Shown here piece by piece: positions 189 to 29,401 of a stretch of 42,901 nucleotides of DNA; the stretch's first letter is position 1, and each line of letters begins with the position of its first letter. The notes beneath the pieces are model-generated. The model saw nothing but the letters and a program-made list of their open reading frames with translations, searched no databases and was not told where the DNA came from. The DNA is taken from positions 1 to 42,901 of the IMG/VR virus record IMGVR_UViG_3300038466_000104. One strand, written 5' to 3'. This DNA is from a virus. The position numbers and the translations under genes are program-made.

Positions 189-263
189 GGGCGCTTAACT
201 CAGCGGTAGAGTGCCACCTTCACACGGTGGAAGTCACAGGTTCAAATCCTGTAGCGCCCACCA
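189..263 (+). tRNA. tRNA-Val (anticodon CAC)
   Basis: A complete cloverleaf folds by eye. The acceptor GGGCGCT pairs with AGCGCCC, the D stem ACTC with GAGT, the anticodon stem CCACC with GGTGG around loop TTCACAC (anticodon CAC, reading GUG valine codons), and the T stem ACAGG with CCTGT around TTCAAAT. The discriminator is A, and the CCA end is encoded (261-263). The gene lies immediately beside a leftward serine recombinase whose stop codon falls inside it, so its 3' half is the likely integration target and the gene is kept intact after integration. Confidence 0.95.
234..263. other. Putative attachment site (attL) in the tRNA 3' half
   Basis: The recombinase coding sequence ends at 234-236, within the variable loop of tRNA-Val, so its last nine or so codons are the antisense of the T arm and acceptor. 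A recombinase reading directly into a tRNA 3' end is the usual configuration at an integrated element's int-proximal boundary. The crossover cannot be placed without attR or an empty site. Serine recombinases often need only a very short shared core, so the junction could also lie just outside the tRNA. Confidence 0.45.
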
Positions 264-1931: not shown

Positions 1932-2137
1932 GAGCGTTCTCCTTTCTGGTCGTTCGCGCTCGCATACTGCAGATATTCGGTGACAAGAATCTCGGCGATC
2001 AGATCCAGAAACTCCCGTAAATACGGATTGTCGGCAGGACACCACACATCGCGTGGTGGTTTCTCTGCCGTCCCGCAAATGTCGTCCGCCGGATCTCCCA
2101 TCACCCGATCTTGCGACCCCGTATCCTTAAAATCCAC
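1928..2137 (-). CDS. Small protein coupled to the recombinase
   Basis: A 69-residue ORF starting with GTG at 2137; an in-frame ATG at 2101 would give 57 residues. Its TGA overlaps the recombinase ATG as ATGA, the classical translational-coupling arrangement. The C-terminal half is an amphipathic helix (REFLDLIAEILVTEYLQ) ending in polar residues. Short helical proteins of this type often precede serine recombinases in mobile elements; I recognise the pattern but know no function. With the promoter proposed at 2180-2210 the leader would be about 35 nt. No clear Shine-Dalgarno sequence is visible for the GTG, so the start is uncertain. Confidence 0.6.
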   Translation of the reverse strand: MDFKDTGSQDRVMGDPADDICGTAEKPPRDVWCPADNPYLREFLDLIAEILVTEYLQYASANDQKGERS

Positions 2138-5330: not shown

Positions 5331-6467
5331 ATGCCAGAATCAGAAAACAAAGGTCATCGGCAACGATTGCGAGACCGCTTCGTGAGCGGCGAGGAAAGCT
5401 CTCATTCTGAAGAGGCCCTGCTCGAGCTTCTGCTGACCTATGCGATCCCGCAGAAGGATGTCCAACCGCTGGCCAAGCGGTTGCTCGCGGAATTCGGCGG
5501 CCTCTCCGGCCTGTTGGTGGCCCCGATGGAAACGCTCTTCCAGTCGGACGGTATCAAGGAAAACAGCGCGGTCCTTCTCAGACTTGTTGGCTGGATTCGA
5601 CAACAGCACACCGATAAACAGCCTGCCAAAGAAGCTCGCAAACCCGCGATCCAGGCGACCCTTTTCGAGGTCATTTCCCCCGAGAAGACGGAGCCACCGG
5701 CCCCCATCAAGGATAAACCCCGGCGCGGCACCGAGATGTTCGGCAAGGCGGTCCTCAAAGAGGCCATTCAGATACTGCCGAGCCTTCCGGATACCGAATC
5801 TCTGGACGAAATACGATCCTTCCTTCGGGCCAAGCTCCATTTCAGCGCTGAACAGACGCGGCATCGTTACGCCAATTACATCACTCGCAGGATGTTCCCG
5901 GACGGTTATGCGGACGGTCCCTTGCGCTCTTTCTCAAAGGTGTTCCCGGAGACCCAGGAACTGCGGGATGTCTGCTTTTACCGTTTCTTGCAGTCTGAAC
6001 CGCTTGAGGTCGAGATCATCGAGGACCTTATCCTGCCCAACCTCGGCACCGGGCGTCTGAGCCGCGAGCGAATTCGAAAGCGCCTCTCGGAGAAATTCCC
6101 CGGCGCGATCAGTATCGTGGATTGCGGAAAGGCCATCGTGGATGCCCTTAGCGCGGCTGGCATCGCCAAGGCCGACAGAACGAAGATCAATTACGCCTAT
6201 CGGGACATACCCGTAGCATCGTTCGCCTTTGTCCTGCACAGCGAATTTCCCGAACCGGGCATGTTCGACATCCGCCAGCTTGAAGAGAACCGCATGATCC
6301 GGGCCATGCTCTGGAATCCGGAGCGGCTCCTTCATTCCCTCTACGAGTTGCGCAACCGGGGGCTCATCAGCAAGGTCTCGGAGATCGACAGTACTCGCCA
6401 GTTCACGACAAAGCACACGCTCGCCGGAGTCGTCGGGCAGATCGTCTCCGGAGGGAACAAGGCATGA
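5331..6467 (+). CDS. brxA: RadC N-terminal domain fused to BrxA (DUF1819)
   Basis: A 378-residue two-domain protein. Residues about 8-92 match the N-terminal helix-hairpin-helix part of RadC/UPF0758 proteins (HRQRLRDRF, EEALLELLLTYAIPQKDVQPLAKRLL, GLSGLLVAPMETLF). The RadC catalytic JAB/MPN domain is absent. After a proline-rich linker (about 93-135), residues about 136-378 resemble BrxA, a small DNA-binding BREX protein (AKLHFSAEQTRHRYANYITRRMF, LEVEIIEDLILPNL, ENRMIRAMLWNPERLLHSLYELRNRGLI). BrxA proteins are usually about 200-250 residues without this fusion. The ATG at 5331 directly precedes the RadC-like start; an alternative start at 5241 would overlap the previous gene. The stop overlaps the brxB start (ATGA). 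Confidence 0.8.
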   Translation: MPESENKGHRQRLRDRFVSGEESSHSEEALLELLLTYAIPQKDVQPLAKRLLAEFGGLSGLLVAPMETLFQSDGIKENSAVLLRLVGWIRQQHTDKQPAKEARKPAIQATLFEVISPEKTEPPAPIKDKPRRGTEMFGKAVLKEAIQILPSLPDTESLDEIRSFLRAKLHFSAEQTRHRYANYITRRMFPDGYADGPLRSFSKVFPETQELRDVCFYRFLQSEPLEVEIIEDLILPNLGTGRLSRERIRKRLSEKFPGAISIVDCGKAIVDALSAAGIAKADRTKINYAYRDIPVASFAFVLHSEFPEPGMFDIRQLEENRMIRAMLWNPERLLHSLYELRNRGLISKVSEIDSTRQFTTKHTLAGVVGQIVSGGNKA

Positions 6468-6988
6468 AGTCCACCGAGATCATCGAAGCCCTTCGTCAAA
6501 AGCTCACGGTGCCCGGCGGGCGGCACCTGTACGGCGTTCTGGGTACCTACCGCCAGCTCGACGGCTTCGTCAATAAACTGCATCAGGCCAAGACCACGGG
6601 GGGTGACCCCTTCTCCAAACCCGTCAACGTGAACCGGGGCATCCTGGACGCTATTCCGGATGACGAGTTCAAGCAGCTCGCTGAAAACGAAGCCAAGCGG
6701 CCCGAACCCACGGCAGCGCACGTAGCCAGGGCCTTCGAGCGGTTCCTGCGCGCGAACCTCACCGGCAAGGGTATTCTGGTTCTTTCAAATCTGGAGATGC
6801 TCTTTGCCTATCATATCGAGCTGAACCTGCTTCGGACCATGGCGGCGGACGAGGACCGCGTGCTGCTCCTGCTGCCGGGCCGGCGGTCGCGCGGCCGGAT
6901 AACCATGTTCCACGAAATGGAGAAGGGGGACTACACGTTGCCCACGAACCTGATTGCCGAGAACCATCTTTGGGAGATTAGGGAATAG
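6464..6988 (+). CDS. brxB: BrxB-like (DUF1788-like) BREX protein
   Basis: A 174-residue protein coupled by ATGA overlap to brxA and only 2 nt from the methyltransferase. The C-terminal half has the pattern expected of BrxB/BrxF small BREX proteins: GKGILVLSNLEMLFAYHI, VLLLLPGRRSRGRITMFHEME, LIAENHLWEI. I see no intact Walker A in the N-terminal half (LYGVLGTYRQLDGF), which argues against the P-loop protein BrxF of type 3 systems. BrxB is essential in E. coli type 1 BREX with an unclear role, probably as a partner of BrxC and PglZ. Position after brxA supports BrxB. Confidence 0.7.
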   Translation: MKSTEIIEALRQKLTVPGGRHLYGVLGTYRQLDGFVNKLHQAKTTGGDPFSKPVNVNRGILDAIPDDEFKQLAENEAKRPEPTAAHVARAFERFLRANLTGKGILVLSNLEMLFAYHIELNLLRTMAADEDRVLLLLPGRRSRGRITMFHEMEKGDYTLPTNLIAENHLWEIRE

Positions 6989-6990
6989 CC

Positions 6991-9519
6991 ATGTCCAAGA
7001 AGCAAGATTCACAATTGGGCAGCATCTTCAAGAAGGACACCCCCAAGATGCCGAAGGGCTACTATTCCGGCGATAAACCAAACCCGAACCTGCGGGCGTT
7101 CGTGGAGCAGCACCGCAAGGAGTCGCCTTACGACCCGGAAAGCGACGACTACGAACTCCACGCGTTCGATAAAGCAATCACTACGAGCAAAGATAACGCT
7201 GTTTACGGAATACATGGTTATTGGGCCAAGAAACCCTATGATGCGATTCGTCAGTACGTCACCCATTTCACGAAACCAGGAGATCTTGTATTAGACCCCT
7301 TCTGTGGGTCAGGAACAACAGCAATCGCGGCAAATGCAGAAGGCAGACAGTGCATTGCGATTGACCTAAGTGGCGCAGCCACCTTCATTACAAGGCATGT
7401 TTCTTATCCTACTTCTCAAGAAAGAGTAGTGGAACTTCTAAGGCTTCTAAGGGCTCAAATCGACCGGGACATATTGCCACTGTATACGACCACTTGTGAG
7501 CGGTGCGGATCAAGCGCTGAAATCGCTTTCACTGTTTGGTCGTACACCTACCGTTGCTTGAAATGCCTATCAGTGTTCCCTATTTACGATGCGACGAGTA
7601 ACCGCGAATGTCCCAACTGTGGCGATAAACTGGCCGCTCGATCACATCATGTTGGGGTGGTTCCAGTCGAGACCGGATACGATTGCAGCGGCAATTGTCG
7701 CCCAAGACGACAAAGGCGAGCACATAACGATCTTGGGCGCTCAGGAAAAGGGGGCTTTGAGCTATTCGATTTACCACTTATCGAACGAATCGAAAGGGAG
7801 CCGATTAGAGACTGGTTTCCAACTGCGGAATTCTCAGACAAATGGATTTCTTATAGACCGAACCTGGGAGAAGCGAAAACTATTGCTGGCTTTTTCACAA
7901 AACGTAACTTGAGAGCGTGTGCAGCAATAATGCGAGGGATTGACTCTATTGAGAAAGCAGGAAATTCAGACGCGGATGTACTTAGGTTTTGTTTTACGGC
8001 GGCGCTGTTAAACTTTTCAAGAAAGGCACAGCACTTAGAAGAGGGAGGAGGATACATACCTGGCAATTATAATTTCCCTCCTATGACAAAAGAGAGAAAT
8101 GTTCTAATGTCATTTGAGTCCGTAGCCTTAAAAGTGGCTAAAGGGATGGATGCGATTGTTGCTATAAGAAATCCTCGTTCCATCACTCTGCTATCGACAC
8201 AGTCAGCCCTCGATTTAACTGATATCCAAGCAAATAGCATAGATTATATATTCACTGATCCACCATATTCGAACAAAGTTCCTTTTGGTGAATTTAACTT
8301 TCTGTACGAAGCCTGGCTGGGAATGTCGTTGTCTTGGAAATCACCGGATGAGCTAATACAGAACGAAAAACTCGGGAAGCCCGCTTCACGTTGGTCAGAC
8401 ATGATGGCACAGGCTGCCTTAGAAATGTACCGAGTTCTGAAGCCGGGGCGTTGGGTATCTGTTTGCTATCACGACGCGGCAGAAGGTTCCTGGGAAATGC
8501 TTCAAGATGCTTTTACCGTCGCAGGATTTGTCCCGGATGACAATGCAAGGGCCATATCTATCGAAGTTCGAAACAAATCGTTCAAACAACGAACCACAAC
8601 AAATGTCCAAAAACGTGACTTAGTCATCAATTTCCGAAAACCTCGTGCGGGCGAAGCTGCTGGAGATGTTTCGATTACTGGTAAGGAGGACTCGCGTACT
8701 TTTAGAGAGAAGGTGCTGACCATTATTATGGACTTCTTGGAAAGCCATCCCGGTACAACAAAAGACAGGATATTTGATGAAGTCGTGAGCCGCATGGTCC
8801 GCAGCGGCCAGATGGAAGCGCACGACTTCGATGAACTCCTCCGCACCGTGGCTGAGGAAATAAAAACTCCGGTCAAGAAGGACCTTTTCCGGAACGAGGA
8901 CCCGAATCTTTTCGGCAATCACGAGGTCGGGAGATGGTACCTCAAGGAAACTGAACTCGCGGTGGCGGATGCAGCTGAAAACGCCAGAGAGGACGCGTCC
9001 GCCGAGAAACTCGGGGTATTCATAAGGGGGCATCTCAAGAAACACCCGGCAGACGAAGGTGTCCATTACAGCGATCTTTTCGAGCACTACATCTACGCGG
9101 TGAAGGACAAACCGCGGCGTCAAATGGTCGAGTTTCTGCCGGATTATTTCTTCAAAACCGAGCAAGGCACCTGGCGGCTTCCTGCCTCCGCGGAGGAGGA
9201 GCGAGCCAAGCGCGAGGCCCGAGTCAAGGGGCTGGGCCGACGGGTTAAACGCTATATCACTCAGCTTGAGCAGGGCGCAATAATTGCCGATAACGAGCGG
9301 CCAAACGACGCCACACTGGCCGAGTGGATACGCCACTGCAAGCGGGCCGGGCTCTATGAACAGGGCAAGCTCCTGTACGAGAAGGGCGGGCTCAACCCCG
9401 ATAGCCTGCCCGAGGAGGCCATGGTCAGCGTCGAGGAAGATTACCAGGTTTGCGCACGCATGCTAAGCCGAAACGTAGAAGCGGATTCGGGTGAGAAGCG
9501 CAAACGGAAGAAAGCGTAA
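6991..9519 (+). CDS. BREX-associated DNA methyltransferase (non-PglX type)
   Basis: An 842-residue N4/N6 amino-methyltransferase, expected to mark host DNA for the BREX system. Motif X/I lies near the start (HGYWAKKPYDAI, about 74-85; DPFCGSGTT at 102-110). Three CxxC pairs (Cys169/172, 189/192, 207/210) form a zinc-ribbon insert. Motif IV DPPY is at 423-426, followed by VLKPGRWVSVCYHD. Order I-insert-IV and the YWAKKP element recall DUF1156-type enzymes rather than the large PglX of type 1 BREX. Residues 570-842 are a separate winged-helix-like region plus a tail (about 768-826) also found in the next gene. DNA coding for roughly residues 60-600 is strikingly AT-rich compared with the GC-rich ends, suggesting a swapped catalytic core. 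Confidence 0.85.
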   Translation: MSKKQDSQLGSIFKKDTPKMPKGYYSGDKPNPNLRAFVEQHRKESPYDPESDDYELHAFDKAITTSKDNAVYGIHGYWAKKPYDAIRQYVTHFTKPGDLVLDPFCGSGTTAIAANAEGRQCIAIDLSGAATFITRHVSYPTSQERVVELLRLLRAQIDRDILPLYTTTCERCGSSAEIAFTVWSYTYRCLKCLSVFPIYDATSNRECPNCGDKLAARSHHVGVVPVETGYDCSGNCRPRRQRRAHNDLGRSGKGGFELFDLPLIERIEREPIRDWFPTAEFSDKWISYRPNLGEAKTIAGFFTKRNLRACAAIMRGIDSIEKAGNSDADVLRFCFTAALLNFSRKAQHLEEGGGYIPGNYNFPPMTKERNVLMSFESVALKVAKGMDAIVAIRNPRSITLLSTQSALDLTDIQANSIDYIFTDPPYSNKVPFGEFNFLYEAWLGMSLSWKSPDELIQNEKLGKPASRWSDMMAQAALEMYRVLKPGRWVSVCYHDAAEGSWEMLQDAFTVAGFVPDDNARAISIEVRNKSFKQRTTTNVQKRDLVINFRKPRAGEAAGDVSITGKEDSRTFREKVLTIIMDFLESHPGTTKDRIFDEVVSRMVRSGQMEAHDFDELLRTVAEEIKTPVKKDLFRNEDPNLFGNHEVGRWYLKETELAVADAAENAREDASAEKLGVFIRGHLKKHPADEGVHYSDLFEHYIYAVKDKPRRQMVEFLPDYFFKTEQGTWRLPASAEEERAKREARVKGLGRRVKRYITQLEQGAIIADNERPNDATLAEWIRHCKRAGLYEQGKLLYEKGGLNPDSLPEEAMVSVEEDYQVCARMLSRNVEADSGEKRKRKKA

Positions 9520-9524
9520 ACCTT

Positions 9525-10331
9525 ATGTCGAAGTATGACCCATTGACCGAATACCTCCGAGGGGTACCTGGAAGCGAGTGCGAACAATTGTTTTCGCTCG
9601 ACGAGTTGGAGCGCATCCTCGGGACCAGCTTGCCTCGAACGGCTCGAATTGACAGGCCTTGGTGGGCCAATACGAGATCAAGCACACATGCTGTGCGCTG
9701 GCTCGATGCTGGATGGAAAATCGGTAGGGTAGATCTTAGAGGCGGCCGGGTAACGTTTGTGAGGACCGATGGTGATATCGGGGCATCGAAGGTTGTTCGG
9801 AACCGTTACGAGAATCTGCGTCGTTTTTTCAAACGTGTCCCGTCTCAGCAGGAACAAATCGCTCTAACGTTTAAGGAAATAGGTTCGGTTATCGGCGGGA
9901 AATTGCCCGACACAGCATTTCACGACAGGCCATGGTGGGCGAATACGAAATCAAGCCCACAGGGTTCGTCCTGGGTGACGACGGGCTGGAGGGTCGAAAA
10001 GGTCTTTCTGAAGGCCCAGATCGTGACGTTTAGGCGAAAGGGTGACAATCTTCTTATGAGTATCCCACGATACGTCAAGGGTCTCCTTGATGGTTCAGCC
10101 CATATTGGCCGTCCAGCGCCGAGCACGCTAGCGAGTTGGGTGCGGTTCTGTAAACGCGCGGGGTGGTACTTTGAGGGAACAGTCCTGTATGAGCGGGGTG
10201 GCCTGAACACGGATTCGCTTGATGAAAGCGAATGTACCGAGGTGGATGAAGACTATGCCGTCTGTAAGCGTGAACTTAATCGTTGCAAGGACGAGATACC
10301 TTTGATGAGCAAGGGGAACCGCCATGCCTAG
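9525..10331 (+). CDS. Tandem WWAN-domain accessory protein with methyltransferase-like tail
   Basis: A 268-residue protein with three modules. Residues about 4-82 and 95-173 are two copies of one small domain: LxRT/DTA ... RPWWANT (44-50 and 135-141) ... GW(K/R)V(E) ... VTF(V/R)R. This matches the uncharacterised WWaN/'GW...VTFxR' domain that I recall as DUF7662-like. The third module (about 196-252; TLASWVRFCKRAGWY ... VDEDYAVCKREL) is clearly homologous to the tail of the preceding methyltransferase: about 32 of 55 positions are identical by eye. The gene lies 5 nt after the methyltransferase and overlaps the start of brxC by 8 nt. No catalytic motif is seen; a DNA- or partner-binding adaptor is a reasonable inference. 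Confidence 0.8.
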   Translation: MSKYDPLTEYLRGVPGSECEQLFSLDELERILGTSLPRTARIDRPWWANTRSSTHAVRWLDAGWKIGRVDLRGGRVTFVRTDGDIGASKVVRNRYENLRRFFKRVPSQQEQIALTFKEIGSVIGGKLPDTAFHDRPWWANTKSSPQGSSWVTTGWRVEKVFLKAQIVTFRRKGDNLLMSIPRYVKGLLDGSAHIGRPAPSTLASWVRFCKRAGWYFEGTVLYERGGLNTDSLDESECTEVDEDYAVCKRELNRCKDEIPLMSKGNRHA

Positions 10332-13300
10332 TACCGAAGATCTTTTCGCCACCCGGAAGAACTTAAGCGAGATCTGCACGGTCCCGGACAAGATCATTTC
10401 CGTTTATTCGCTGGAAAAGCATGTCTGGGCCGACTCGAACTCCGAGGCCAGCCGCAAGGCCCGCAAGCCTGAGTTGCAGACCGTCGAGGAGTTCCAGATC
10501 GACCCGGTTAGGCCATTCCTCACGGATGTCTTGCGCAATATGGCCGCTCCCTACAAACCAGAGCGCAGAGATAGTCCCATCGGCCAGGGGTACTGGATTC
10601 AGGCCGAGTTTGGGTCCGGTAAATCGCATCTGCTCTGCTGCCTTGCCGCCTTGGCTCTGGGACGCAAGGATGCCTGGGGGATCGTCAAAAAGAAGGAAGA
10701 CGCCTCCGGCCGCGGAAAGCGCGAGTCTCTTTTCCGTTTCTGGGAGGAGGGCCTGGAGGCGAAAAGCAGCAAGGGTACCAAGGGCATCTTTGTCATCGTC
10801 AAAACGCTGGTGGGTGCGGGCAGCGGAACGGTGGGCCTGACCGACAAGGGCCGGCGGCTCTCCGAGTACATCCTGGATGCGGCCAAGGAGCAAATACAGG
10901 TCGAGCTCGGCAAGAACATCTCCTTGTATCCAGTGGAACTGTTGGCCGACCGGTTTATTACCGAAGATCTGGAACGATATCGGAAAGACCTGGCCAAGTT
11001 TCTGCGCGACCCGAAGTTCTTTGACGAGGACGAATTCGAAGAGGTTGACGATTTCATCCGCACCATTCAACAGAACAAAACCCCGGAGTACAAGCGGAGC
11101 TGCGGCAACAAGCTCTGGCGCTTCTACACCGAATACCTGAAGGTTCAGCCTCATATCGCTGCCGAAACCGAGGACATCCTCAAGCACATGACGGAGACCA
11201 TCCTGGATGAGGGGTATAGCGGCGTCCTGCTGGTGTTGGACGAGGTGTCCTTGTTCATGAAGAACCGGGACGAAGATCAGCGGACCGACGACGAGAAGAC
11301 CCTGGTCGTGCTATCGAATCGCCTGGCGAAGATTCACAATCTGCCCGTCTGGACGGTCTGCGCGGCTCAGCAGGCCATCGAGAGCAAGATGGGCGTCAAG
11401 AACATCATCGCCGATGACCGGCTGAAGCTGGTCAAACTGTTGGAGGAGGACAAGGACTACTACGATATCGTTCTCGCCCGCGTGCGGGAGATCAAGGAGC
11501 CGGCGGCCATCAGCAATTATTATCTCCATTACAAGCGGGGATTCACCTGGCCCAACAGCATCGCCGAACAGGATTTCCGCCACTTCTTCCCATTCCACAA
11601 ACCCGCCATCGAGGTCTTGCGGGCGATCACCTACGAACTGACCACGACCCGCTCCGCGATCCATTTCATGCACCAGACCCTCAAACACCAGATCAAGCAG
11701 AAGGGCCGCGAGCTCATCCGCCTGTGGGAGCTGTTTGACGAAGCGGTGCGTTACGAAGAGGACCCGAGCGGTGTCCACGCTGGCCTGGTGGCCATCAAGA
11801 CGAAACGTGAGACGGATTACCGGGCTTACGAAGTGTGCAAGCGCCAGATCGACGGTCTGACAAAAGGCTACCTGAAAGTGCACCGCGACAAGAGCGTCAA
11901 GGTCATCCAGACACTTTTTCTCTATCATATCGCCCGCACCCGCCAGCAGGGCATCACGCCGGAGGAGATCGCCAACTCGGTGCTCATCGAGCGGGATGCA
12001 GACGCCAACCCGGACGAAAACAACCAACATTACGAAACCATTGCCGAAAACCTCAAGAAGGAACTACGGCAGATCGTCCAAGCCTTCGACGAGGAAAAGC
12101 GGGCGAGATACCGGTTTGACCCCGTCTTCACCGGGGTCGACCCAAGGAGTGAGTTCGGCAAAGCCCGCGACGAAGCGGAATCCAATGAGGCCATGCAGAA
12201 AGAAGCATGGGACCATCTTTTGGCGCTCGACGAATGGCCGGTACGCACGCGCCAGATGACCATCGATCTATCCAACGGGGTGCGGTCCACCTTCAGGAAT
12301 ATCGCACCGTTCGTTGCGCCATGGGAGGACCGAGGGGCTGTCCGCTCCGGGGATCAGAGCCTGGATGTGCTATGGCAGGGGCGGCAGATATACGGACGGG
12401 TGGGAATGCGCGATTTCGGGCGAATGGTCTCGGGAAATCAGGTTTTGCCTGCCATTGAAAGCGACCAAACAGACCTTGATTTTGCCGTATACATCGGCAC
12501 GCGCCACGTCGCAGATACCTCTGTGGTTAAGCTGATCGAGCGGCGAAAAGACCCACGAGTCATTCTCTGGACTCCAGCCGAGTTGACTCAAGAGGAACGT
12601 GATCGGCTCATCGAATTCGCCGCCTACCGTAAGCTCATATCCGACTGGCAAGGCAAGGAAACCGAAGATGCCGTCGCGGTGGTCAACTGGGTTTCCAACG
12701 CGCTCCAGTCCGATCTTGCCAAGATCGTGAAGATCGTGGACAACAGTTACGCCCGGGGCCGCCTCGACGCTCTGAACAACTCACAGATGGATTACCGCGT
12801 GGCCGGTGAATTGGCGGCCATCCTTACGCCGCTGGTGGATCGGGTGCTCACGGCCGCATATGAATCCAGAGACATCAAGTTTGATCCGCCGTTCGTATTC
12901 CGCAAGGAAGAGGGTGTCAAGGTCATAAACGGCATCGTCAAGACCGGTCGCATTCCCAAGGGGGCAAAACCCAACCAGAACATCAGTGCGGCCCAGAACT
13001 TCGGCTTCGGCCTGAAAATCATGAAAAAGACCGCCGAAAAGGAACTGGATGTTTCGGGCAATCCCTATGTTAGGAACATGTGGACATTCATAGACGACAA
13101 GTTGGCCGATGGAGGGCAAACCATGAAGGTGGATACCCTCTACAAGAACTTCATGGGTATAGGCGGCCCGAAGGACTATGGACTCACCCGACGCATGGTT
13201 CAACTCTACATGCTCTGCCTGGTCCGGGAAGGACGCTTGCGGGTCACTGTAGGAGCAAAAGCCGGGCTTGCCCATCCCATACTCGATTATTCGAATATCG

Positions 13301-14667
13301 CCGATGTGGAATTCTCGACGAAGGTGTTGGATGCTCTTGGCGAGATTCAGAAGGTGGCCAAGCCTGAAAATTGGGAGGTCCTCCGGCCCTACGCTGAGAG
13401 GCTTCTTGGTATCGAGATTCCTACCAATCAGGATGATACCGTAATCTCCGAACACCGGGCCAGACTGCGGCAGTTCTTTTCCCAGGAGAGGGAATCGTCT
13501 TCCAGGACCGCAAGCCGCGCTCAAAGTCTGTTTGATGCATTGAAAACGGGTAATCCCTATGAAACTGAACTTGGGCAGGCCATAAAATTGTTCTCAACAA
13601 ACATCGAGGGCGGGGATGATATCCATCTTATTCTGCACGCCCTGAAAGAGGCCATGAGCTATCAGGCTTTTGACACGAATAGGGCGACTCCCGCAGAGGT
13701 GGATGATCTTGCCAATCGCCTGAAGAACTACCGTGACATTCGGACTTTCCTCGAATACGAGACTACGATTCGAACAGCCCATGCCTACTGCACCATCACC
13801 CTGGCAGATTTAAGAGAATTAGCCGAGGCTCGAAAGGCTGTCGAGAGCGTTCGAATCAAGCTCCAGAATCTGAAGGAGTACATAGACTCTGATGTCAAGC
13901 TGAAGACGGAACTTGTAGGTCATTTTCCGGCGGTTGAGGGAGAAATGGATACGATAGCGGCAATGATCCGTGAATACTCCTCTGTGTATCTGCCCATGCA
14001 CGAATCCCTCGTGAACAGGATCGATGCCAGCCGCAAGCAGGTTCAGGATACGATCACTGGAAATGACATCAAGGCCCTTGGAGTTCTGGATGGAATCACG
14101 GCGCTGCAACCTGCAAGCACCGATAAAATGGTGGAGAGCCTTACGCAACTTCGCAGTGAGATTTTTGAATGTCCATCGCCTTCACGGGCTTCCGTGGAGG
14201 ATCACCTCCGCAATGGCCCGTTGCATGAATGCGGTTTGTCTTTTGTCAATGCGTTAACCCATGCTCAAGCGGCAGAAAGCGCGGCGGAAAGAGCCAGTAA
14301 AATGATCGACCATGCATTTCGGCGAAAGATGGAGGTGTTTCTGAATCCCGCGGTGCGAGAGCGGCTGGAGCAAGGGAAGAAGGAACCGTCCATCGCCGGA
14401 TTACTGGCGTGCAAGAATAAGGACGAGCTTCGTGGGTATCTCGTCAAAGCGGTACAGGAAACTCCTGGCATTGTGGACATCATCAATCGATATCTTAAAC
14501 GCATCGTTGTAAAACGGGTCAGAATCGCCGATTTCAGACCCAAAATAGGCACCATACAGAAAGACCAGGTGACGAAAGTAGCCGAGGAATTTGGCCAGTT
14601 CCTGGTAACTCAGTATGCCGAAATCGAGGGAGATGAAGACTCCATTCCAATGCTCCAATTGGAATAG
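10324..14667 (+). CDS. brxC: BrxC/PglY-type BREX ATPase
   Basis: A 1447-residue P-loop ATPase. Walker A is AEFGSGKS (94-101) and Walker B is GVLLVLDE (300-307). The long C-terminal region is helical with coiled coils. It matches BrxC/PglY proteins, the large ATPase core common to BREX systems, typically about 1,200 residues; this one is long. It probably couples ATP hydrolysis to target sensing or complex remodelling with PglZ and BrxB. It overlaps the preceding gene by 8 nt and precedes pglZ by 12 nt. The first two thirds are GC-rich and the last third (after about 12950) has more balanced composition, perhaps a second recombination breakpoint. Confidence 0.9.
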   Translation: MPSTEDLFATRKNLSEICTVPDKIISVYSLEKHVWADSNSEASRKARKPELQTVEEFQIDPVRPFLTDVLRNMAAPYKPERRDSPIGQGYWIQAEFGSGKSHLLCCLAALALGRKDAWGIVKKKEDASGRGKRESLFRFWEEGLEAKSSKGTKGIFVIVKTLVGAGSGTVGLTDKGRRLSEYILDAAKEQIQVELGKNISLYPVELLADRFITEDLERYRKDLAKFLRDPKFFDEDEFEEVDDFIRTIQQNKTPEYKRSCGNKLWRFYTEYLKVQPHIAAETEDILKHMTETILDEGYSGVLLVLDEVSLFMKNRDEDQRTDDEKTLVVLSNRLAKIHNLPVWTVCAAQQAIESKMGVKNIIADDRLKLVKLLEEDKDYYDIVLARVREIKEPAAISNYYLHYKRGFTWPNSIAEQDFRHFFPFHKPAIEVLRAITYELTTTRSAIHFMHQTLKHQIKQKGRELIRLWELFDEAVRYEEDPSGVHAGLVAIKTKRETDYRAYEVCKRQIDGLTKGYLKVHRDKSVKVIQTLFLYHIARTRQQGITPEEIANSVLIERDADANPDENNQHYETIAENLKKELRQIVQAFDEEKRARYRFDPVFTGVDPRSEFGKARDEAESNEAMQKEAWDHLLALDEWPVRTRQMTIDLSNGVRSTFRNIAPFVAPWEDRGAVRSGDQSLDVLWQGRQIYGRVGMRDFGRMVSGNQVLPAIESDQTDLDFAVYIGTRHVADTSVVKLIERRKDPRVILWTPAELTQEERDRLIEFAAYRKLISDWQGKETEDAVAVVNWVSNALQSDLAKIVKIVDNSYARGRLDALNNSQMDYRVAGELAAILTPLVDRVLTAAYESRDIKFDPPFVFRKEEGVKVINGIVKTGRIPKGAKPNQNISAAQNFGFGLKIMKKTAEKELDVSGNPYVRNMWTFIDDKLADGGQTMKVDTLYKNFMGIGGPKDYGLTRRMVQLYMLCLVREGRLRVTVGAKAGLAHPILDYSNIADVEFSTKVLDALGEIQKVAKPENWEVLRPYAERLLGIEIPTNQDDTVISEHRARLRQFFSQERESSSRTASRAQSLFDALKTGNPYETELGQAIKLFSTNIEGGDDIHLILHALKEAMSYQAFDTNRATPAEVDDLANRLKNYRDIRTFLEYETTIRTAHAYCTITLADLRELAEARKAVESVRIKLQNLKEYIDSDVKLKTELVGHFPAVEGEMDTIAAMIREYSSVYLPMHESLVNRIDASRKQVQDTITGNDIKALGVLDGITALQPASTDKMVESLTQLRSEIFECPSPSRASVEDHLRNGPLHECGLSFVNALTHAQAAESAAERASKMIDHAFRRKMEVFLNPAVRERLEQGKKEPSIAGLLACKNKDELRGYLVKAVQETPGIVDIINRYLKRIVVKRVRIADFRPKIGTIQKDQVTKVAEEFGQFLVTQYAEIEGDEDSIPMLQLE

Positions 14668-14679
14668 GAAGGCGAGTCG

Positions 14680-17589
14680 ATGCTTTCGAGCTGGGTACTT
14701 GAGAAGCTGCAGGCGCTGAAGGATGAGCAGGTCCTGCTCGTCCAGGATTCGCTTCGGCTTCTTCCTGAAGCGGGCGGTGCCGTCCACCGGTTCGCCAATG
14801 AGAGCGGATTTACAGTGATTATCGCATCCACAAATCTCGTCTTCAGGGAGCTCTTTGAAAAGGCAACCGCTTCCAAGGAGACAAAGAAGCTTCTTCTCGT
14901 TGACCGCGCCCCGGCTCGAAGGAGAGCTCACGCCTCGCTGACCAAAGCCCCCCCACCTTTCTATCCTGATCTTATTACCAGGGCCCCTGAGACGGCCCGG
15001 ATCGATATCAGTCTGCGGCAGTTTCTCATTGAAAAGACAGGGGACCCAAACTGGCCTCAAGAGTCCAATGATCCACGGTTCGCGCGGCTGATTACCGGCT
15101 GCATGGAAGCTGTTCTCAAAGCACATGCAAGCCTGCGCGCGGCGCATCCGACTCGGTTTACCGATCGCGATTTCAAGACGATTGTTGCCTATTCGGCGTT
15201 GGGCGTTCCCGAGGCCGCCTTTAAGCGACCAGAACCAAGAAGCTACTGGCGCATCGGTCTTATCGGATATCCGGCGCTTGAAGAACTTGTTTCGCTTGCA
15301 CCGGAAGTCGCGCATTCCATCCGCGACGAACTGCGCGGCGCCCCAGCTCCCTTTTGCTGGTTCGCGGACTCGCCGCCGGAACTGATCGTCAGGGCCTTCT
15401 ATCTCTCAGCGATACTGGTCCAGCACGTCGATCATTGGAAACTCCTACTCAGCAGCATTGATCCGGACCTCAAGGCCTTCAGTAAGATGGAGACCGCCCT
15501 GATTCGCAAAGCCGCTCCTGAACTCGTTTCAATTGATCCTGTCCGGGCTCATAGCGACCTCCAGGAGGTCGAGAGCTCATTGACCAAGGAGTCTCTCAAT
15601 CTCATCCTCTTTGACCAGTTGAAAATCGCTGCGAACGGCCGGTTTTCTGAGGTGATCGAAAAAGAGAGGTATTCAACTCTGATCCGATCCTTGGCGCTAT
15701 TGGTGGCGTTGGATAGCCTCCTTTCCGACGCCCCCCCCATTGCTTCCCATGAAAAAGTCACCCGTGTGCTTTTTGCAGAACAGGATGACAAGAAAGACCT
15801 GTTTATCGAACAACGGCCTTCGCCGGCGTGGGAAAATCTGAAAGCGGCATATCGGCTGGTACGATCAATCCGAGACATTCGGGACGGTTTGGATGTTGCC
15901 GTCAAGAACCTCAATGTGAAAACAACGTCAGAGTTGTCATTTGAGTGGTTTCGGTCCCTATGGAATGATCGACGTGTCAACCGTCTGGAATACTACCTGT
16001 CGGCTCTCGAACGCCTGGTCTATAGCGTCGACTTCCTCCCCCGTCCTGCAAATAAATTGCCACCCGCTTTCTTGAGCGCATTGGATCGTATTCGAGAACG
16101 CACCAGCACGCTGCGTGACGACACACAGAAGGTACTCGCGAGCGTAAATGCCCGGTACCAGCTACTGGTTGCAGCGAAGTACAAATCATGGATCACCGAG
16201 GATTCCTCGGAAATACGGTTAACAAGCCAGTTCCTGCGGCGCTGTGTTAAACCACATTGGGACCCCCAGAGCGAGAAGGCAGTGGTTTTTGTTTTCGACG
16301 GTATGAGATACGACATCTGGGACGAGCTGGTGCGGCCGATCTTTGAGGATCGTATGGAGATAATCGCTGATTACCCAGCCACGTCTCTCCTGCCGTCAGA
16401 GACGCATATCAGCAGAAAAGCAATATTTGCGGGTTTGTTTCCAGATTCTTTCGACACTCGAAGTGGCGAAGATGCTTTGCTCAAAGGAGCCATGAAGCGA
16501 GAATTCGGCTATGAGGGCGATGTCAACGTTGTTGCCCCCGATGGTATGGGAACAGGCGAGACCGTCCGGTACCGAGCAAGTAACATTGAGTTCTTCATAT
16601 TCGAACTATGTGACAAGGAGCTCCACAAGATACCGGTCAAGGCGCTGCCCGACGGCCGTTTCGTTCCGGGACGCCCTCTCGCCTTCATTTATCAGCAGCA
16701 TATCAAAAACATTATTGATACCGAGGTCATGGCCATAATCCGCGAACTACCACCGGATACGAAGGTGTTTGTTGTCGCCGACCATGGATTTGGCGCCATC
16801 GGTCGCGAGCGCATCCGGGTGGAAATGTCATGGCTGAATGAGCCGACAGACTGCTTTTATCTCAACGCATGGCTCAGGCAGGCATTGGGGGACGCTGGCG
16901 CACCCCGAAAGGTCCGTGAAAATGTTCTTGAATTTCCGGTCGCTGATCTGCGATTGCCTGATGCTGGTGAGGCCTATGACCGTTCTGCAAACCGGAGTTG
17001 GCAGAAGATATTCGCATCAATCATTTTCCCACGAACGGGTTATGCCTTGGCCAGGCCGAAGGCCAACTTCAGTCCTGACGCCTATTCCCATGGTGGAATA
17101 TCGATCCAGGAAATGCTCGTGCCTATGCTCGCAATGCGAGTGAAAGCTCCGGAAGAGGGTCTGCTTGTGCTTGGGCCGATTGCAGGACCCTCGGAACTGA
17201 TTGAGGGTGAAGAGGCGGATTTCCGGATGCCGGTTCAACTCACGCAATCCCACAAGAACAGGGAGATTCGGGTTGAAGCGCAAGCGGTCTATCAGAACAA
17301 AGAAGGGACAGCGCCGATACCCCATCAGGTTCAATTCGTGTCAGCTGCGGGAGGGGAAATCGTTTTTCGATTCATCCCAGACGCAGCCGACACTTCCGAT
17401 GAAGAACGTAAAACCGGCATCATGGAGAGAATGTTAAGAATCAGCGTCACTTACCGTGAGGCACAGCGCATGGTGAGAAAAGCACGGACAATCAAATTTA
17501 CCATGCGACTAAATTCCGAAAAGGTCGTTCGCAGGGTACCAGCCCATTTGGGAAAAATACTGGGTCTGACCCCAAGGAGCATGAAGTGA
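14680..17589 (+). CDS. pglZ: PglZ alkaline-phosphatase-superfamily BREX protein
   Basis: A 969-residue protein with the PglZ core in its second half. Metal-site motifs of the alkaline-phosphatase/sulfatase fold are visible: VFDGMRYD (538-545, with Asp540 as metal ligand), a [17 protein letters not shown] segment, VVADHGFG (Asp701, His702) and YSHGGIS (His804). PglZ is the defining, essential BREX protein; its enzymatic role in defence is not settled. The N-terminal half (about 1-510) is helical and unassigned. It follows brxC by 12 nt and precedes brxL in the order seen in type 1 and type 4 systems. All key metal residues appear intact. Confidence 0.92.
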
Positions 17590-17692
17590 GGCCGCAGTGC
17601 AGGACGTTAACCCAATTAAATGTGGCCATCTTTTGGAAGCCACAGTCCAATCTGGTCCAGGCTGTTCTTGGGTCGCGAGTGGAGAACTGTGG

Positions 17693-19735
17693 ATGAATCT
17701 GAAACTGAAAGAAGTATTCAAAGGCAAGGTCGTCAATAAAGCTCATACGATCAACACCGGTGTTGACGAATTTCCTCGTTACGTCCTCGAATACCTGATT
17801 GATAACTATTGTTCTGAGGAAACCTTCCACGAGGACATGGAGAAGGTCGTCCGGCGGCTTAAGGAGACCTTCGTCTACGGAGCGGAAGCTGAGAAAATCA
17901 GACACTATATCCGTGAAAACCGTAGCCATTCAGTGATCGCAAGCCTGGAAGCCCGGTTGGTTGAAACGGAGGACAAATACTGGGGCACCATTTCAGCGAT
18001 CAACGAAAATTTTGTGAACATACCAGAAAACATAATTAGCCAATACCCGATGCTCCTTTCCGGAGGGATGTGGGGCACCATCGACCTGACCTACGACGAA
18101 ACCGAGATACATAACAAGAAAATCAGGCCCTTCAAAATCACTGCATTCACGCCCTTTCAAGTCAGCATCATTAACTTGGACGAGTTCATAGAGCGACGAA
18201 AAGAATTCTCTACGGACGAATGGATTGATGTCTTGGTAAATTCCTGTGGCCTCGATCCTTCGGGAATGACTCGGCGTCAGAAATTACTTTATCTTTGCCG
18301 CTGCATCCCCCTTGTCGAAACGAACGTCAACATGGTGGAACTTGCACCTCGGGAAACCGGCAAGACCTATCTCTATCGCAACATTTCATACTATGCGCAT
18401 GTGCTGTCCGGCGGCAAAGCGACCCCTGCACAGCTTTTCATCAACCTGAATACAGGGAGGATTGGTGAAGTCGGTGTTCGGGACGCCGTTGTTTTTGATG
18501 AAATTGCGAACACCGATTTCACTGATCCCAGGTCCTTCGTAAGCATTATGCAGGGGTACATGCAGGATGCGAAATTTAGTAGAGGGAAGAAGGAAATCCT
18601 TGCCTTTGCGAGCTTGGTATTTGTTGGCAACCTTGACGTCCAAGGCAACCTGCCGCACGAGAAGTATTACCACCTCTTTGAGCCGCTGCCAGACTTCCTG
18701 CAGGTCATAGCCTTCTTGGACCGCATTCATGGCTATTTACCCGGCTGGGAGATTCCAAAACTGGCTCCGAAAAGTTTTTCAAAGGACTATGGATTTATTA
18801 CAGATTATTTTTGCGAGATTATGCATGAGCTGCGGCGGGTGGATTTACTTGGTTCATTGCGCCATCGCTTCGTTGTAGTTGACCATGCAGGAAGAACCCA
18901 CGGCGTCTCCGGCCGGGATCAACGCGCTGTAATGAAAACCACATCAGGCTTGCTGAAACTGATTTGCCCTGACGGGCGAGTTACCGACGAGGAGCTTGCG
19001 GACATATTGAGTTTGTCCTGTGAACTGCGGCAAAGGGTGCGGGACCAGCTCCATCTGATAGCGCCCGGCGAGTACGACCGGATCGTCCTTGGCGCGCTGA
19101 TGAAACCGTCGGGCAAGCAAGTTGTCCCGGAGCTGCCGGACGGCAAACGTGTTCAACGCGTCACGCTCCCCGAGAAGCCTTCTGTCGGTGAGGTTGTAGG
19201 ATTGGCCGTCGAAGGTGATCATGGCTGCATTCTTCGTTTTGAAATGCAGGCAACCAAGGGGTCAGGGCGTATCGTGCCGTTGGGGTCGATTCAGCGTGTC
19301 ATGCGTGAAAGCATCGAAGCGGCGGCTCAGTACATCCGGGCGAAGCACGAAGACCTCGGGATCAGCGCAGAGTGGCGCAATAGTTTTGATGTGGCTGTGT
19401 TGGCGACCTTTATGGGCGTCCCCAAAGAGGGGCCATCCGCCGGCATCACTATCGTTACTGGTATCGTGTCCGCCTTGAAAAAGGTTCCGGTTCGAAACGA
19501 CATCGCTATGACCGGGGAGATTACGATAATGGGCAAGGTTCTCCCTGTGGGCGGTATCCAGCAGAAGGTTCAGGCAGCCTATGATGCTGGCGTCAAAGAA
19601 ATTCTTTTGCCTGCTGATAATCTCAGAGAAGCCGAAGGACTGCCTTCCTATGTGCGCGACAGCATAAAGCTGACTCCGGTAAGTACCATTGATAAGGTGA
19701 TCGAGATATCTTTAGTGTGCGCCAGCACATCTTGA
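17693..19735 (+). CDS. brxL: BrxL, Lon-like AAA+ BREX protein
   Basis: A 680-residue protein starting at the ATG at 17693 (GGAG upstream); a GTG at 17597 would add 32 unlike residues. Walker A is the variant APRETGKT (218-225) and Walker B is AVVFDE. The C-terminal domain is a Lon-type S16 protease fold with the Ser-Lys pair apparently intact: PKEGPSAG with Ser582 and GGIQQKV with Lys625. BrxL is found in type 1 and type 4 BREX; the E. coli protein forms DNA-binding hexameric rings. The length matches the family. It is the last gene of the operon. Downstream (19736-19787) I see no clear hairpin terminator before the convergent phage gene. Confidence 0.93.
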
Positions 19736-21890: not shown

Positions 21891-22121
21891 CTAAACCTCT
21901 GGATCTTTCGCCGGCGACTGGCCGGTCGGAGAGTTGAACTTGGAGTCGGTGAAATAGTTGAACCCCTTCCGGCCGACGTATACCGCCAGGACGCCGAGAA
22001 AGATGGTCGACCACTCCGCCGGGATCCGGAATCGCTCCGGAAACAAGAACGCCAGTGCCCCCATGAGCAGCGTGAGCGTCGCGAACGCCGCCACCCAATG
22101 TTTCCCCCGAAAGGCCTTCAT
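21891..22121 (-). CDS. Holin-like small membrane protein
   Basis: A 76-residue protein with two TM segments (WVAAFATLTLLMGALAFLF and STIFLGVLAVYVGRKGF) and a charged tail. The start at 22121 overlaps the amidase stop (ATGA); a longer start at 22148 lies inside the amidase gene. Small size, two membrane helices and coupling to the endolysin are the usual marks of a phage holin. No specific holin family is identified. Confidence 0.65.
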   Translation of the reverse strand: MKAFRGKHWVAAFATLTLLMGALAFLFPERFRIPAEWSTIFLGVLAVYVGRKGFNYFTDSKFNSPTGQSPAKDPEV

Positions 22122-22618
22122 AGCGTCACCTCCCCGCTCCCGATCCATTCGGAATCGATTTTCCCCGCCAACATGTCCCGAAGGCTGTCCATCGGAAAAA
22201 ACCTCCCGGGGCAGGTCTTATACTGCCCGAGCCTCCAGTCGAACCCCGCCATGAGCCCCGCGTCGCGGTGCCCGATTACGCTCTGCGCCGGGATCCCGTA
22301 GTTCACCATCAGGGAGAAGCAGAGGTCCCTCAGGAAGTAGAGTTTCGCGAGCGACGGGGGCGCCTCGTCGAAATTCCCGACGACGCAGATACCGATGGAC
22401 TTTAAGTTCATGTGCATCTCCTTCGTGTGTGCCCCGGGTTGCGATTCGGGGCGGCCGATCTGGAGGACGAGGCTATTTCCGACCCGTTCGATCCCGTAGT
22501 GGTACCCGATGTCGGACCAGCCGTTTGTTTCCTTGTGGTACCGGCGAATTGCCTCCCAATCGACGACCGTGCCGTCTTTCGTCAGCGAGTGATGGATGAT
22601 TACGTTCTGCGGGTTCAT
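22118..22618 (-). CDS. N-acetylmuramoyl-L-alanine amidase (phage endolysin)
   Basis: A 166-residue T7-lysozyme/PGRP-type amidase that cleaves the MurNAc-L-Ala bond of peptidoglycan at lysis. Likely zinc ligands and catalytic residues are His10 (IIHHS), the IGYHYGI segment around 37-43, His117 (VIGHRDA) and Cys136 (TCPGR). The length is typical for a phage single-domain amidase, and no signal peptide is seen, in line with release through a holin. The ATG at 22618 has a strong GGAGGTG ribosome-binding site and comes just after a terminator hairpin. It is followed by the holin-like gene with a 4-nt overlap. Confidence 0.92.
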   Translation of the reverse strand: MNPQNVIIHHSLTKDGTVVDWEAIRRYHKETNGWSDIGYHYGIERVGNSLVLQIGRPESQPGAHTKEMHMNLKSIGICVVGNFDEAPPSLAKLYFLRDLCFSLMVNYGIPAQSVIGHRDAGLMAGFDWRLGQYKTCPGRFFPMDSLRDMLAGKIDSEWIGSGEVTL

Positions 22619-22631
22619 GAACACACCTCCA

Positions 22632-22656
22632 AATAAAAAACCCCGCCAGGGCGGGG
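22632..22656 (-). terminator. Rho-independent terminator between tail and lysis genes
   Basis: A perfect 7-bp stem (CCCCGCC at 22641-22647 with GGCGGGG at 22650-22656) is followed on the minus strand by a run of T (complement of AAATAAAAAA, 22631-22640). It separates the late tail operon from the amidase, whose ribosome-binding site starts a few bases on. Lysis genes may therefore depend on read-through or antitermination. Confidence 0.8.
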
Positions 22657-22700
22657 ATGGATGAATCAACCTGTACGGCCGCGTGCCGCGTGTATGTCGG

Positions 22701-23036
22701 TTACAGATTCTCCAGTGCGTTTCTGAACTGCGCCCGGGTGAGCGCCTGCTTCCCCTCCAGGGCCCGCAAGCGATTCTCGTTGTTGAACATCGCCCGGGCG
22801 AGACGGGGCAAAAGGAGCTCCTTGAGCTGCCCGAACTCCGCGGCCACCGGATCACGAGTCGGCGGAGGCGGAAGAAGCGGCTCCGTGTCGTGGACTTCAA
22901 AGGATAGCTTCCCGGCATCTAAGTCGGCCGCAAGCCCCGGATACCCGGCCCGGACGATCGCCGCCCCCTGGTCGGGGGTAAGCCCTGCAAGATAAGCGAC
23001 CGCCTCGGTCCCCCTTTTTATGACGAGGAACGACAT
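22701..23036 (-). CDS. Small phage protein at the end of the tail module
   Basis: A 111-residue soluble protein with a good GGAGG ribosome-binding site. The N-terminal part (FLVIKRGTEAVAYLAGLT) is followed by a proline-rich spacer (EPLLPPPPTRDP) and a helical C-terminus (LKELLLPRLARAMFNNENRLRALEGK). It lies 9 nt after the fibre-like gene and just before the terminator. No family recognised; tail-fibre assembly or a minor virion component are possible. Confidence 0.7.
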   Translation of the reverse strand: MSFLVIKRGTEAVAYLAGLTPDQGAAIVRAGYPGLAADLDAGKLSFEVHDTEPLLPPPPTRDPVAAEFGQLKELLLPRLARAMFNNENRLRALEGKQALTRAQFRNALENL

Positions 23037-23045
23037 CCTTCCCTC

Positions 23046-24104
23046 CTAATAGTCGGTGACCGTCCCGGCGTTGACGTCCACAGTGCGCTGGTTGACCTTG
23101 TAATACTTGACGAGCGAGGACGGGGACTCCATGTAGGCCCATTGCCAGCTTTCGCCGTGGAGCTGGAACCGCACCTGCTGGGCCCCGGAGAGCCCGCGGA
23201 TGTCCATCACGCAGTTCCCCGAGCCGTACCCGGAGCCCAACTTCGATACCTCCGAGGAGTAGACGTTACCGATGCGAAACCGGCAGTGCCCCGTGTAATA
23301 GTACGACCCGTACTCTTCGCTGATCGTGTACCCCTCGACGTAGACGGGGACGATCAAGCGCGACAGGCGCGGGTTGTTCGGCAGGTTGATCGTCCAGACG
23401 GTTCCCACGTCGACATAGTAGTAGTAATAAGTCCCCACCCGCCCCTGGTTGATGGTCTCCAGGACCGAGTGCTGGACGGGGTGCTGATCGAGCCCAATCC
23501 CGTCGATCCATATCGACCCGGCGACGTTGGTGTCGTCCTTCCCGCAGACAATCCGGAACTTCACGTACTCGGTCGTCGCGTAGTCGATCCGGAAGTTCTG
23601 GATGAGCAGAAGCGTCCACTCCGTCCAGTTGCTCGTCGAGGACAGAAGCGTCTTCTCCCCGAGATAGGTCTTGTTCCTGTCGAAGAACCGCGCCACGACT
23701 TCGAACTTCATCCCCGCCGCGGACGCCTTGTACGCCATGGCGAGGGCCGGCGCATAGAGGTGGTTGAAGAAGATGTAGTCGCTCTCGAGGTACCCGCCGC
23801 CGTTGCCCGTCCCGCCTGGGTGGGTGAACTTGTACGACTTGGTCCCGTGGACGTAATCTGTGGTGTCGTATCCCCCGGTCCCCCCGGGGAAGAGGAACCG
23901 GGTCCAGTTGTCGGGAATGCCGTCGGCATCCGAATCGGTCTCAAGGGAGCCGTTAAGGATCGCCCCGACGGTGCTCTGGCCCCCGCCTCCGGCGTTGAGC
24001 CTGGCCTCGTGGTCGTCGAAGTTCTCCTTGACCTTCTGCATCAGGGGCTGGCTGATCGGCTCGCCCGCTGCGATTTCGGCTTCGGTGATCCCTGCGTAGG
24101 GCAT
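23046..24104 (-). CDS. Tail fibre/receptor-binding-like protein
   Basis: A 352-residue protein with a GGTGAGG ribosome-binding site. The N-terminus (about 1-45) is helical and may attach to the tail tip (AEIAAGEPISQPLMQKVKENF). A carbohydrate-binding-module-like domain follows (about 48-205: LNGSLETDSDADGIPDNW, GTKSYKFTHPGG, SIWIDGIGLDQH). A Tyr-rich beta domain completes it (about 215-352: GTYYYYYVDVG). The 'NGSLETDSDADGIPDNW' type of sequence is common in phage adhesins. It probably binds surface glycans of the host. It stands at the distal end of the tail operon, where lambda-like phages keep fibre genes. Confidence 0.7.
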   Translation of the reverse strand: MPYAGITEAEIAAGEPISQPLMQKVKENFDDHEARLNAGGGGQSTVGAILNGSLETDSDADGIPDNWTRFLFPGGTGGYDTTDYVHGTKSYKFTHPGGTGNGGGYLESDYIFFNHLYAPALAMAYKASAAGMKFEVVARFFDRNKTYLGEKTLLSSTSNWTEWTLLLIQNFRIDYATTEYVKFRIVCGKDDTNVAGSIWIDGIGLDQHPVQHSVLETINQGRVGTYYYYYVDVGTVWTINLPNNPRLSRLIVPVYVEGYTISEEYGSYYYTGHCRFRIGNVYSSEVSKLGSGYGSGNCVMDIRGLSGAQQVRFQLHGESWQWAYMESPSSLVKYYKVNQRTVDVNAGTVTDY

Positions 24105-24112
24105 CTCTTACC

Positions 24113-26491: not shown

Positions 26492-26497
26492 CCTGTT

Positions 26498-28849: not shown

Positions 28850-29401
28850 CTATCCGATCCTCCTTGCGGTGGCGGTCGCCTTCTTCCTCTTGCCGGACTC
28901 TTGGTAGGTGATCGTGAGCTGGACGTGGTCGATGTAGGCCGTCGAGTTGTTGGCGTTCGACTGGCATCCGATGGCCACCCCGAACGCCGAGGTGTTTATC
29001 TCGGAGGCTTCCCACGTCGTTCCCCACAGGTCCGCCGCCCCGCCGAAGGGGACCTGGTTTTCGGTCCCCGACCAGGCGGCTCCGCCCGAGCGATTCGCCC
29101 CCACCTTCACCGAGTTCCTGAGGAGCTGGACGAGCGTGTCCTGGACGCCTCCCGCTCCCCGGTACCGCTCGACCTCCACGAGAATCCCCTCGATCACCGC
29201 GTTCAAGGGAATCGCGAATCCGAACTGGGTCACGTAGAGGGCGTATGACGTAACCCCGTTGTCGAAGGAGTTGTCCGTAATCGAGGCGTAAACGTTGTTC
29301 GAGGTGTAGACGTTCCCCGGGTTCTGCCAGGGGAGTCCGTTCTGCCCGGCCTCGGAGACGTTGGCCGCCGATGTAGGGCTTCTGGGTCCCTGAACAGGCA
29401 T
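28850..29401 (-). CDS. Tail protein, beta-sandwich type
   Basis: A 183-residue protein whose ATG shares one base with the preceding stop (TAATG). It reads as one all-beta domain with a central ALYVTQFGFAIPLNAVIEGILVEVERY and a final TAYIDHVQLTITYQESGKRKK. This is the pattern of minor tail or fibre-associated beta-sandwich proteins. Tight coupling to both neighbours places it in the tail-tip complex; no precise role can be given. Confidence 0.7.
   Translation of the reverse strand: MPVQGPRSPTSAANVSEAGQNGLPWQNPGNVYTSNNVYASITDNSFDNGVTSYALYVTQFGFAIPLNAVIEGILVEVERYRGAGGVQDTLVQLLRNSVKVGANRSGGAAWSGTENQVPFGGAADLWGTTWEASEINTSAFGVAIGCQSNANNSTAYIDHVQLTITYQESGKRKKATATARRIG

Follow-up and report, generated by a model that had tools for sequence, protein, structure and literature searches.

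Seven adjacent genes on the forward strand of a viral DNA sequence (positions 5331-19735) very likely form a complete bacteriophage exclusion (BREX) operon of an apparently undescribed subtype, carried as cargo by a (pro)phage, in which the core of the DNA methyltransferase is exchanged between systems and the terminal protein, BrxL, probably performs proteolysis. The sequence is IMG/VR virus record IMGVR_UViG_3300038466_000104, positions 1 to 42,901, and its full length of 42,901 nucleotides (nt) is referred to below as the window. The genes were designated A, F, X, D, C, Z and L in their order along the operon. The original prediction of seven adjacent, co-directional genes with overlaps or short gaps was borne out by the coordinates of the open reading frames (ORFs), all of which were intact and tightly packed, with successive intergenic gaps of -4, +2, +5, -8, +12 and +7 nt. 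Catalytic motifs were likewise present as claimed: Walker A (GSGKSH, 10612-10629) and Walker B in the BrxC-like protein C, DPFCGSG and TDPPY in the methyltransferase X, the complete metal-binding set DGMR, DHG and HGG in the PglZ-like protein Z, and Walker A in BrxL.

Proteins A, F, C, Z and L were 79-93% identical to those of a close relative, L021, and X was 57% identical overall. Ratios of nonsynonymous to synonymous substitution rates (dN/dS) between the two were low for A (0.14), F (0.05), C (0.07) and Z (0.06), indicating that the operon genes are under purifying selection and are not decaying. Synonymous sites were saturated for BrxL (dN 0.04) and also for X.

The central proteins C (10324..14667, +; 1447 amino acids [aa]) and Z (14680..17589, +; 969 aa) are, respectively, a BrxC-like AAA+ ATPase and a PglZ-like protein of the metal-dependent phosphatase/nuclease superfamily. 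Both PF10923 (BrxC_BrxD) and PF08665 (PglZ) exceeded their Pfam cutoffs within the one operon, with weak but motif-complete matches; PADLOC models matched the two proteins over short stretches near the active sites only. Protein A (5331..6467, +; 378 aa) joins a RadC N-terminal domain (UPF0758_N, E 7e-6, slightly short of the Pfam cutoff) to a divergent BrxA-like, putatively DNA-binding domain. The hidden Markov model (HMM) built from the A clade matched a Haloarcula BrxA-family protein (3.5e-8) and a Halorarius protein (1e-25), and the RadC domain was present in 16 of 18 aligned clade members.

Protein F (6464..6988, +; 174 aa) had been called BrxB-like, which holds for its fold and not for its sequence. 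Its best family match was BrxF (E 6e-4, below cutoff), and the clade HMM retrieved type-3 BrxF at 4e-5, while BrxB (DUF1788) gave no sequence match in PADLOC, Pfam, NCBIfam or clade-HMM searches. An AlphaFold2 model computed from 16 homologues (mean predicted local distance difference test score, pLDDT, 88.5) had as its top PDB match BrxB of the Acinetobacter BrxC-BrxB-PglZ complex (9zll_G, E 1.6e-4). A sequence search of the PDB with the F and BrxC profiles produced no usable match. By its sequence and predicted fold, F is a probable BrxF-type, putatively inactive NTPase with the BrxB fold and without a usable P-loop.

Clade profiles were compared with reference systems of types 1, 3 and 4 and one 5/6-like archaeal system. 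Those of C and Z matched all types weakly, that of L matched type-1 and 5/6-like BrxL at 1e-104 to 6e-153 (type-1 BrxL at 5e-125 or better), and that of X matched type-3 BrxXI at 3e-93, with no type-1 PglX match among these systems. In phylogenetic trees of C, Z, X and L the new clade was monophyletic and distinct each time. Its support was 99/99 for PglZ, where the 11 rows of type 1 and the 12 rows of type 3 were each separate; 100 by a quick method for BrxC, outside types 1 and 3; 100 for BrxL, separate from the sampled known types; and 99 for X, sister to Halorarius with type 3 apart. Deeper joins were unsure owing to long branches, but the distinctness of the new clade was stable.

The PADLOC library (2023) recognised X (as PglXI) and BrxL and had no match for A, F or D. 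The same library called BrxC, PglZ, BrxF and BrxA of type-3 control loci and type-1 BrxA at 1e-36 or better, and the new clade is thus a true blind spot of the models, which miss this system. With no usable call for BrxA, BrxB/F, BrxC or PglZ, and with separate clades in the PglZ, BrxC and BrxL phylogenies, the original view is supported that the operon fits no standard subtype and may represent a new one or a hybrid of types 1 and 3. The claim that it has the set and order of type 1 finds no support: BrxL alone is clearly type-1-like, X and F resemble type 3, and neither type is indicated by C and Z. The prophage context and the Lon catalytic dyad described below had gone unnoticed. Judged by sequence, the operon represents a new BREX subtype: its modification side is type-3-like and well supported, its BrxL is type-1-like, and a protease step is plausible but predicted.

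The Lon domain of BrxL

BrxL (17693..19735, +; about 680 aa) was identified by PADLOC (1e-166), by TIGR02688 (above cutoff) and by its match to a solved BrxL (8emc, 1.5e-103). The ORF opens at 17597, but the start is probably at 17693 because relatives are about 680 aa long. The C-terminal part of the protein is a Lon protease domain (19163..19717, +; Lon_C 6e-52), and residues 527-707 matched solved Lon proteases at 6e-41, with Ser614 (19436-19438) and Lys657 (19565-19567) aligned to the catalytic serine and lysine of those enzymes; the MTGE motif is conserved as well. Together with the alignment, the register of the dyad relies on its spacing in E. coli Lon (S679/K722), in which the lysine follows the serine by 43 residues. 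Both dyad residues were present in 12/12 BrxL proteins of the new clade and together in 0/28 other BrxL. A protein of the same BrxL clade, 67-92% identical, was found in 14 of 19 member genomes, where other full-length BrxL reached at most about 38% identity; the idea that BrxL is a chance neighbour was rejected on these figures.

In type-1 BrxL, the C-terminal domain is reported to be 14% identical to Lon, not to conserve residues essential for the protease, and to mediate dimerisation of the ring (PMC10164562). The Lon domain of the new clade could likewise be structural, dimer-forming or regulatory and inactive as a protease, its dyad kept by descent, and we regard this as a serious alternative, close to an even chance. 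Besides the type-1 precedent, it draws on the absence of the classical Lon histidines here. Against it, the dyad and its surroundings were retained in all 12 members over great divergence where other BrxL lost both residues, and the new-clade domain is much nearer to true Lon than the type-1 domain is. From its sequence, it is plausible that BrxL of the new clade retains a working protease site. In the BrxL proteins studied previously the protease site is dead. A clade that has kept it offers a test, at a single serine, of how phage DNA replication is stopped by BREX and of why a Lon-like domain is present in BrxL.

Methyltransferase modularity, protein D and a proposed mechanism

X (6991..9519, +; 842 aa) resembles the type-3 DNA methyltransferase BrxXI (PADLOC PglXI, E 5e-90) and carries the BrxXI-type zinc-finger target insert, in which C189, C192, C207 and C210 are invariant. 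The compact methyltransferase with a zinc-ribbon insert of the original prediction is a relative of type-3 BrxXI.

X is a modular METHYLTRANSFERASE: amino acids 1-62 and 556-842 were 63-86% identical to L009, L010 and L021, whereas amino acids 63-555 were 30-53% identical to these three but 66-82% identical to the second methyltransferase of a phage contig, L008. The two methyltransferases of L008 were themselves 78-100% identical across the C-terminal part and 30-58% elsewhere. Across 11 loci, identity of the X C-terminal part correlated with BrxC identity (rho 0.81; 1 of 2000 permutations was as high), whereas the core and target insert showed no correlation (rho -0.2 to 0.0). These patterns show that the core (7177..8655, +; cysteines 169/172 and 189/192/207/210 at nt 7495-7620) is swapped between systems, and that the C-terminal part (8656..9516, +), a probable docking region, remains with its own complex. 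For a BREX methyltransferase, the system separates the portion that stays with the complex from the portion that is exchanged.

The gene between X and C, whose product the original prediction did not know from any BREX type, encodes D (9525..10331, +; 268 aa), a tandem DUF7662 protein (PF24698, E 4e-23, two stretches) of a kind in which two or three DUF7662 domains precede a C-terminal domain (10056..10283, +) that is shared with X, matching its aa 750-827 at 51% identity (E 6e-19). DUF7662 was not found mentioned in the BREX literature searched. A fold search with the predicted model (pLDDT 79) gave no significant match, so the role of D is read from the domain that it has in common with X, and this copy of the X C-terminal region suggests that D docks at the same place as X. 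Alternatively, D could be a regulator or inhibitor of X and not a second specificity subunit, in keeping with its position between X and C and with its optional nature (among annotated loci it occurred in the window, L005, L014 and L015 only). We consider this possible but somewhat doubtful, as tandem DUF7662 domains together with a copy of the X C-terminal domain resemble an adaptor more than a regulator.

Under the interpretation of the operon as a complete BREX system, homology to types 1 and 3 suggests that X would modify a particular site in the DNA of host and prophage while A, F, C and Z serve as its scaffold, as in other BREX systems. Incoming DNA that lacks the mark would be recognised by the A-F-C-Z complex, in which PglZ is the probable nuclease, and BrxL would then be loaded on DNA as an AAA+ ring (compare the solved type-1 BrxL), halting phage DNA replication. 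Specificity would change by replacement of the X core, leaving the C-terminal part that fits the local BrxC complex. D would be a probable second DNA- or phage-sensing subunit docking at the place of the X C-terminal part, and BrxL with its Lon dyad would probably cleave some protein once engaged. The joint proposal, that BrxL is a working ATP-dependent Lon-type protease providing regulated proteolysis of a phage or BREX protein, combined with X-core swapping and with D in the docking place of X, is tentative, and we give it somewhat less than an even chance.

Several points weigh against the interpretation of the operon as a new BREX subtype with a proteolytic BrxL. The case is built on sequence and predicted structure, which show the gene content, its conservation, the separate clades, the kept motifs and the modular make-up of X; defence, methylation, nuclease and protease activity and docking are predicted from them. 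The sequence matches behind the BrxA-, BrxC- and PglZ-like assignments are short or weak. In classical Lon a pair of histidines stands ahead of the active serine, and BrxL does not have it, so that protease activity is not assured. Finally, types 2 and 4 and the DUF499 BREX-related systems were thinly sampled in the trees or absent from them, type-2 and DUF499 sequences having been left out.

Carrier phage and spread of the operon

The window belongs to a tailed (pro)phage. A serine integrase (234..2078, -; PHROG integrase 5e-81) lies beside a tRNA-Val (189-263) that overlaps the 3' end of the integrase ORF on the opposite strand, and this end is probably one prophage attachment end. No repeat of the tRNA end was found elsewhere in the window at 16 nt, so the other prophage end lies beyond the window or the site is short. 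A search for related phages with an empty site, made with the tail protein, returned none. To the right of the operon lie lysis, tail, head, portal and terminase genes (22118..41693, -; PHROGs); the terminase was up to 56% identical to phage records (Roseobacter phage terminases). G+C content was 0.51-0.57 across the operon (3-kb blocks) versus about 0.62 in the phage genes to its right. The right end of the phage carries an orphan DNA methyltransferase of the N6_N4 family (42254-42835, -; Pfam 2e-24), which may guard the phage against other restriction systems. The genes upstream of the operon (2192-5265) were not found beside other members and were excluded from the system. With one third of its known sequence given to the operon, this phage would clearly exemplify anti-phage defence carried by a phage itself.

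When a BrxC alignment was used to scan 84,980 species genomes, 24 loci were obtained, and there were two further relatives: a phage contig found with an X alignment and a distant haloarchaeal plasmid. The close phage relative obtained with the X alignment enabled the genome scan with the BrxC alignment to succeed. Scans of viral contigs with single BrxC, X and PglZ proteins and with a two-sequence BrxC alignment found nothing, and tblastn found neither BrxC in phage records nor PglZ in plasmids. The related contig L007/L008 carries a tape-measure gene and is therefore also a phage.

A common plan, A-F-[X]-[D]-C-Z-[X]-L, was seen in more than 20 loci when these were annotated with the proteins of the window. 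The loci span about a dozen phyla, methanogens among them, and X either precedes C, follows Z, or occupies both positions (L008, L015). Record labels included Pseudomonadota, Omnitrophota, Synergistaceae, Spirochaetales, Armatimonadetes, WOR-3, Firmicutes, Pelotomaculum, Methanothrix, Anaerolineae, Patescibacteria and others; because many records are metagenome bins, single labels may be wrong, although the broad spread is not in doubt. An even draw of about 300 genomes from each of three phyla gave one or two matches each, the centre genome included. The subtype is rare but broadly distributed.

Additional genes were noted at some loci. In L021, BrxL is directly followed by another methyltransferase, of N6_N4 type, and by an 875-aa protein that has no Pfam match (15387-20357), possibly a restriction-modification pair coupled to the operon. 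In L024 (Levilinea saccharolytica, 14354-23842), accessory genes lie between C, X, Z and L, namely a 423-aa unknown, an AAA_21 ATPase and DUF4276 pair, and an 8xMP membrane protein, and in L009 a TPR-CHAT protein (20005-22287, -; CHAT 1e-66) adjoins the operon.

Relation to known BREX types

According to a 2026 survey, the former six BREX types are kept in four clades, three DUF499 BREX-related types are added, types 2 and 3 have no BrxL at all, and BrxHII occurs in 77% of type-3 taxa (PMC12839542). Our type-3 control loci agreed in having no BrxL and, in most, a full BrxHII. The operon had no helicase (BrxHII) or DUF499 ATPase by Pfam and no PglW, BrxHI or BrxD (type 2) by PADLOC or Pfam. The operon breaks the rule, as stated in that survey, that BrxL never occurs with type-3 components. 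None of the surveyed types, including the DUF499 BREX-related ones, has this gene content (PMC12839542). In the BREX literature searched there was no named subtype with it and no mention of a BREX type VII or a hybrid BREX; survey supplementary tables and preprints were outside the scope of that search, and an earlier mention is possible.

The operon might be read as a type 3 variant that lost BrxHII and took up a type-1 BrxL, and not as a separate subtype. X and F are nearest to type 3, PglZ falls on the type-3 side of its tree, away from type 1, and BrxHII and BrxL are proposed in the survey to fill the same role (PMC12839542). We nevertheless find this reading improbable: C and Z form separate long-branched clades outside type 3, X is not nested within type 3, and gene order and the RadC_N-BrxA fusion differ. 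Furthermore, BrxL is monophyletic across many phyla, so that its association with the other components is old.

Another reading takes the operon for a divergent type 1 BREX whose methyltransferase was exchanged. In its favour are a BrxL with a Lon domain, strong type-1 BrxL matches and a methyltransferase preceding BrxC in some type-1 variants (L074). It is very improbable, given no type-1 BrxA, BrxB or PglX match, the strongly supported position of C and Z outside type 1, and BrxL in a separate clade with a different catalytic state. On sequence grounds, the operon is not type 1 BREX with a swapped methyltransferase. Two type-1 loci were noted separately: L074 is a type-1-like BREX with the order B-X-X-C-Z-L, in which two type-1 methyltransferase ORFs precede BrxC, and L038 (E. 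coli plasmid NZ_CP117017) is a complete type-1 BREX on an IncY replicon, of the incompatibility group of P1-like phage-plasmids.

The Halorarius halobius plasmid system (L004, 9637-20873), itself possibly another haloarchaeal BREX variant, has homologues of X, A, F, C and Z that are 22-30% identical, that of F being recognised by profile only and that of C matching over its full length, but differs from the window operon in lacking BrxL, in its order X-A-F-C-Z, and in a metallophosphoesterase that follows PglZ. The DUF499 (type 3 BREX-related) systems share the combination, within a single locus, of a BrxXI-like methyltransferase, PglZ and an inactive STAND-type protein (PMC12839542), whereas the window operon has neither the DUF499 ATPase nor a helicase and contains BrxL. 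With type 1 BREX (BrxA, BrxB, BrxC, PglX, PglZ, BrxL) it shares the A-B/F start and an operon-terminal BrxL with an MCM-type AAA+ and a Lon domain; it differs in having no type-1 PglX or BrxB, in C and Z belonging to other clades, and in keeping the Lon dyad. With type 3 BREX (BrxF, BrxC, BrxXI, BrxHII, PglZ, BrxA) it has in common BrxA- and PglZ-like proteins, a BrxXI-like methyltransferase with a zinc-finger insert and a C-terminal extension, and probably the small protein F, whose best match, below cutoff, is BrxF; it differs by carrying BrxL in place of BrxHII, by its gene order, by C and Z that belong to other clades, by the fusion of RadC_N to BrxA, and by an optional tandem DUF7662 protein.

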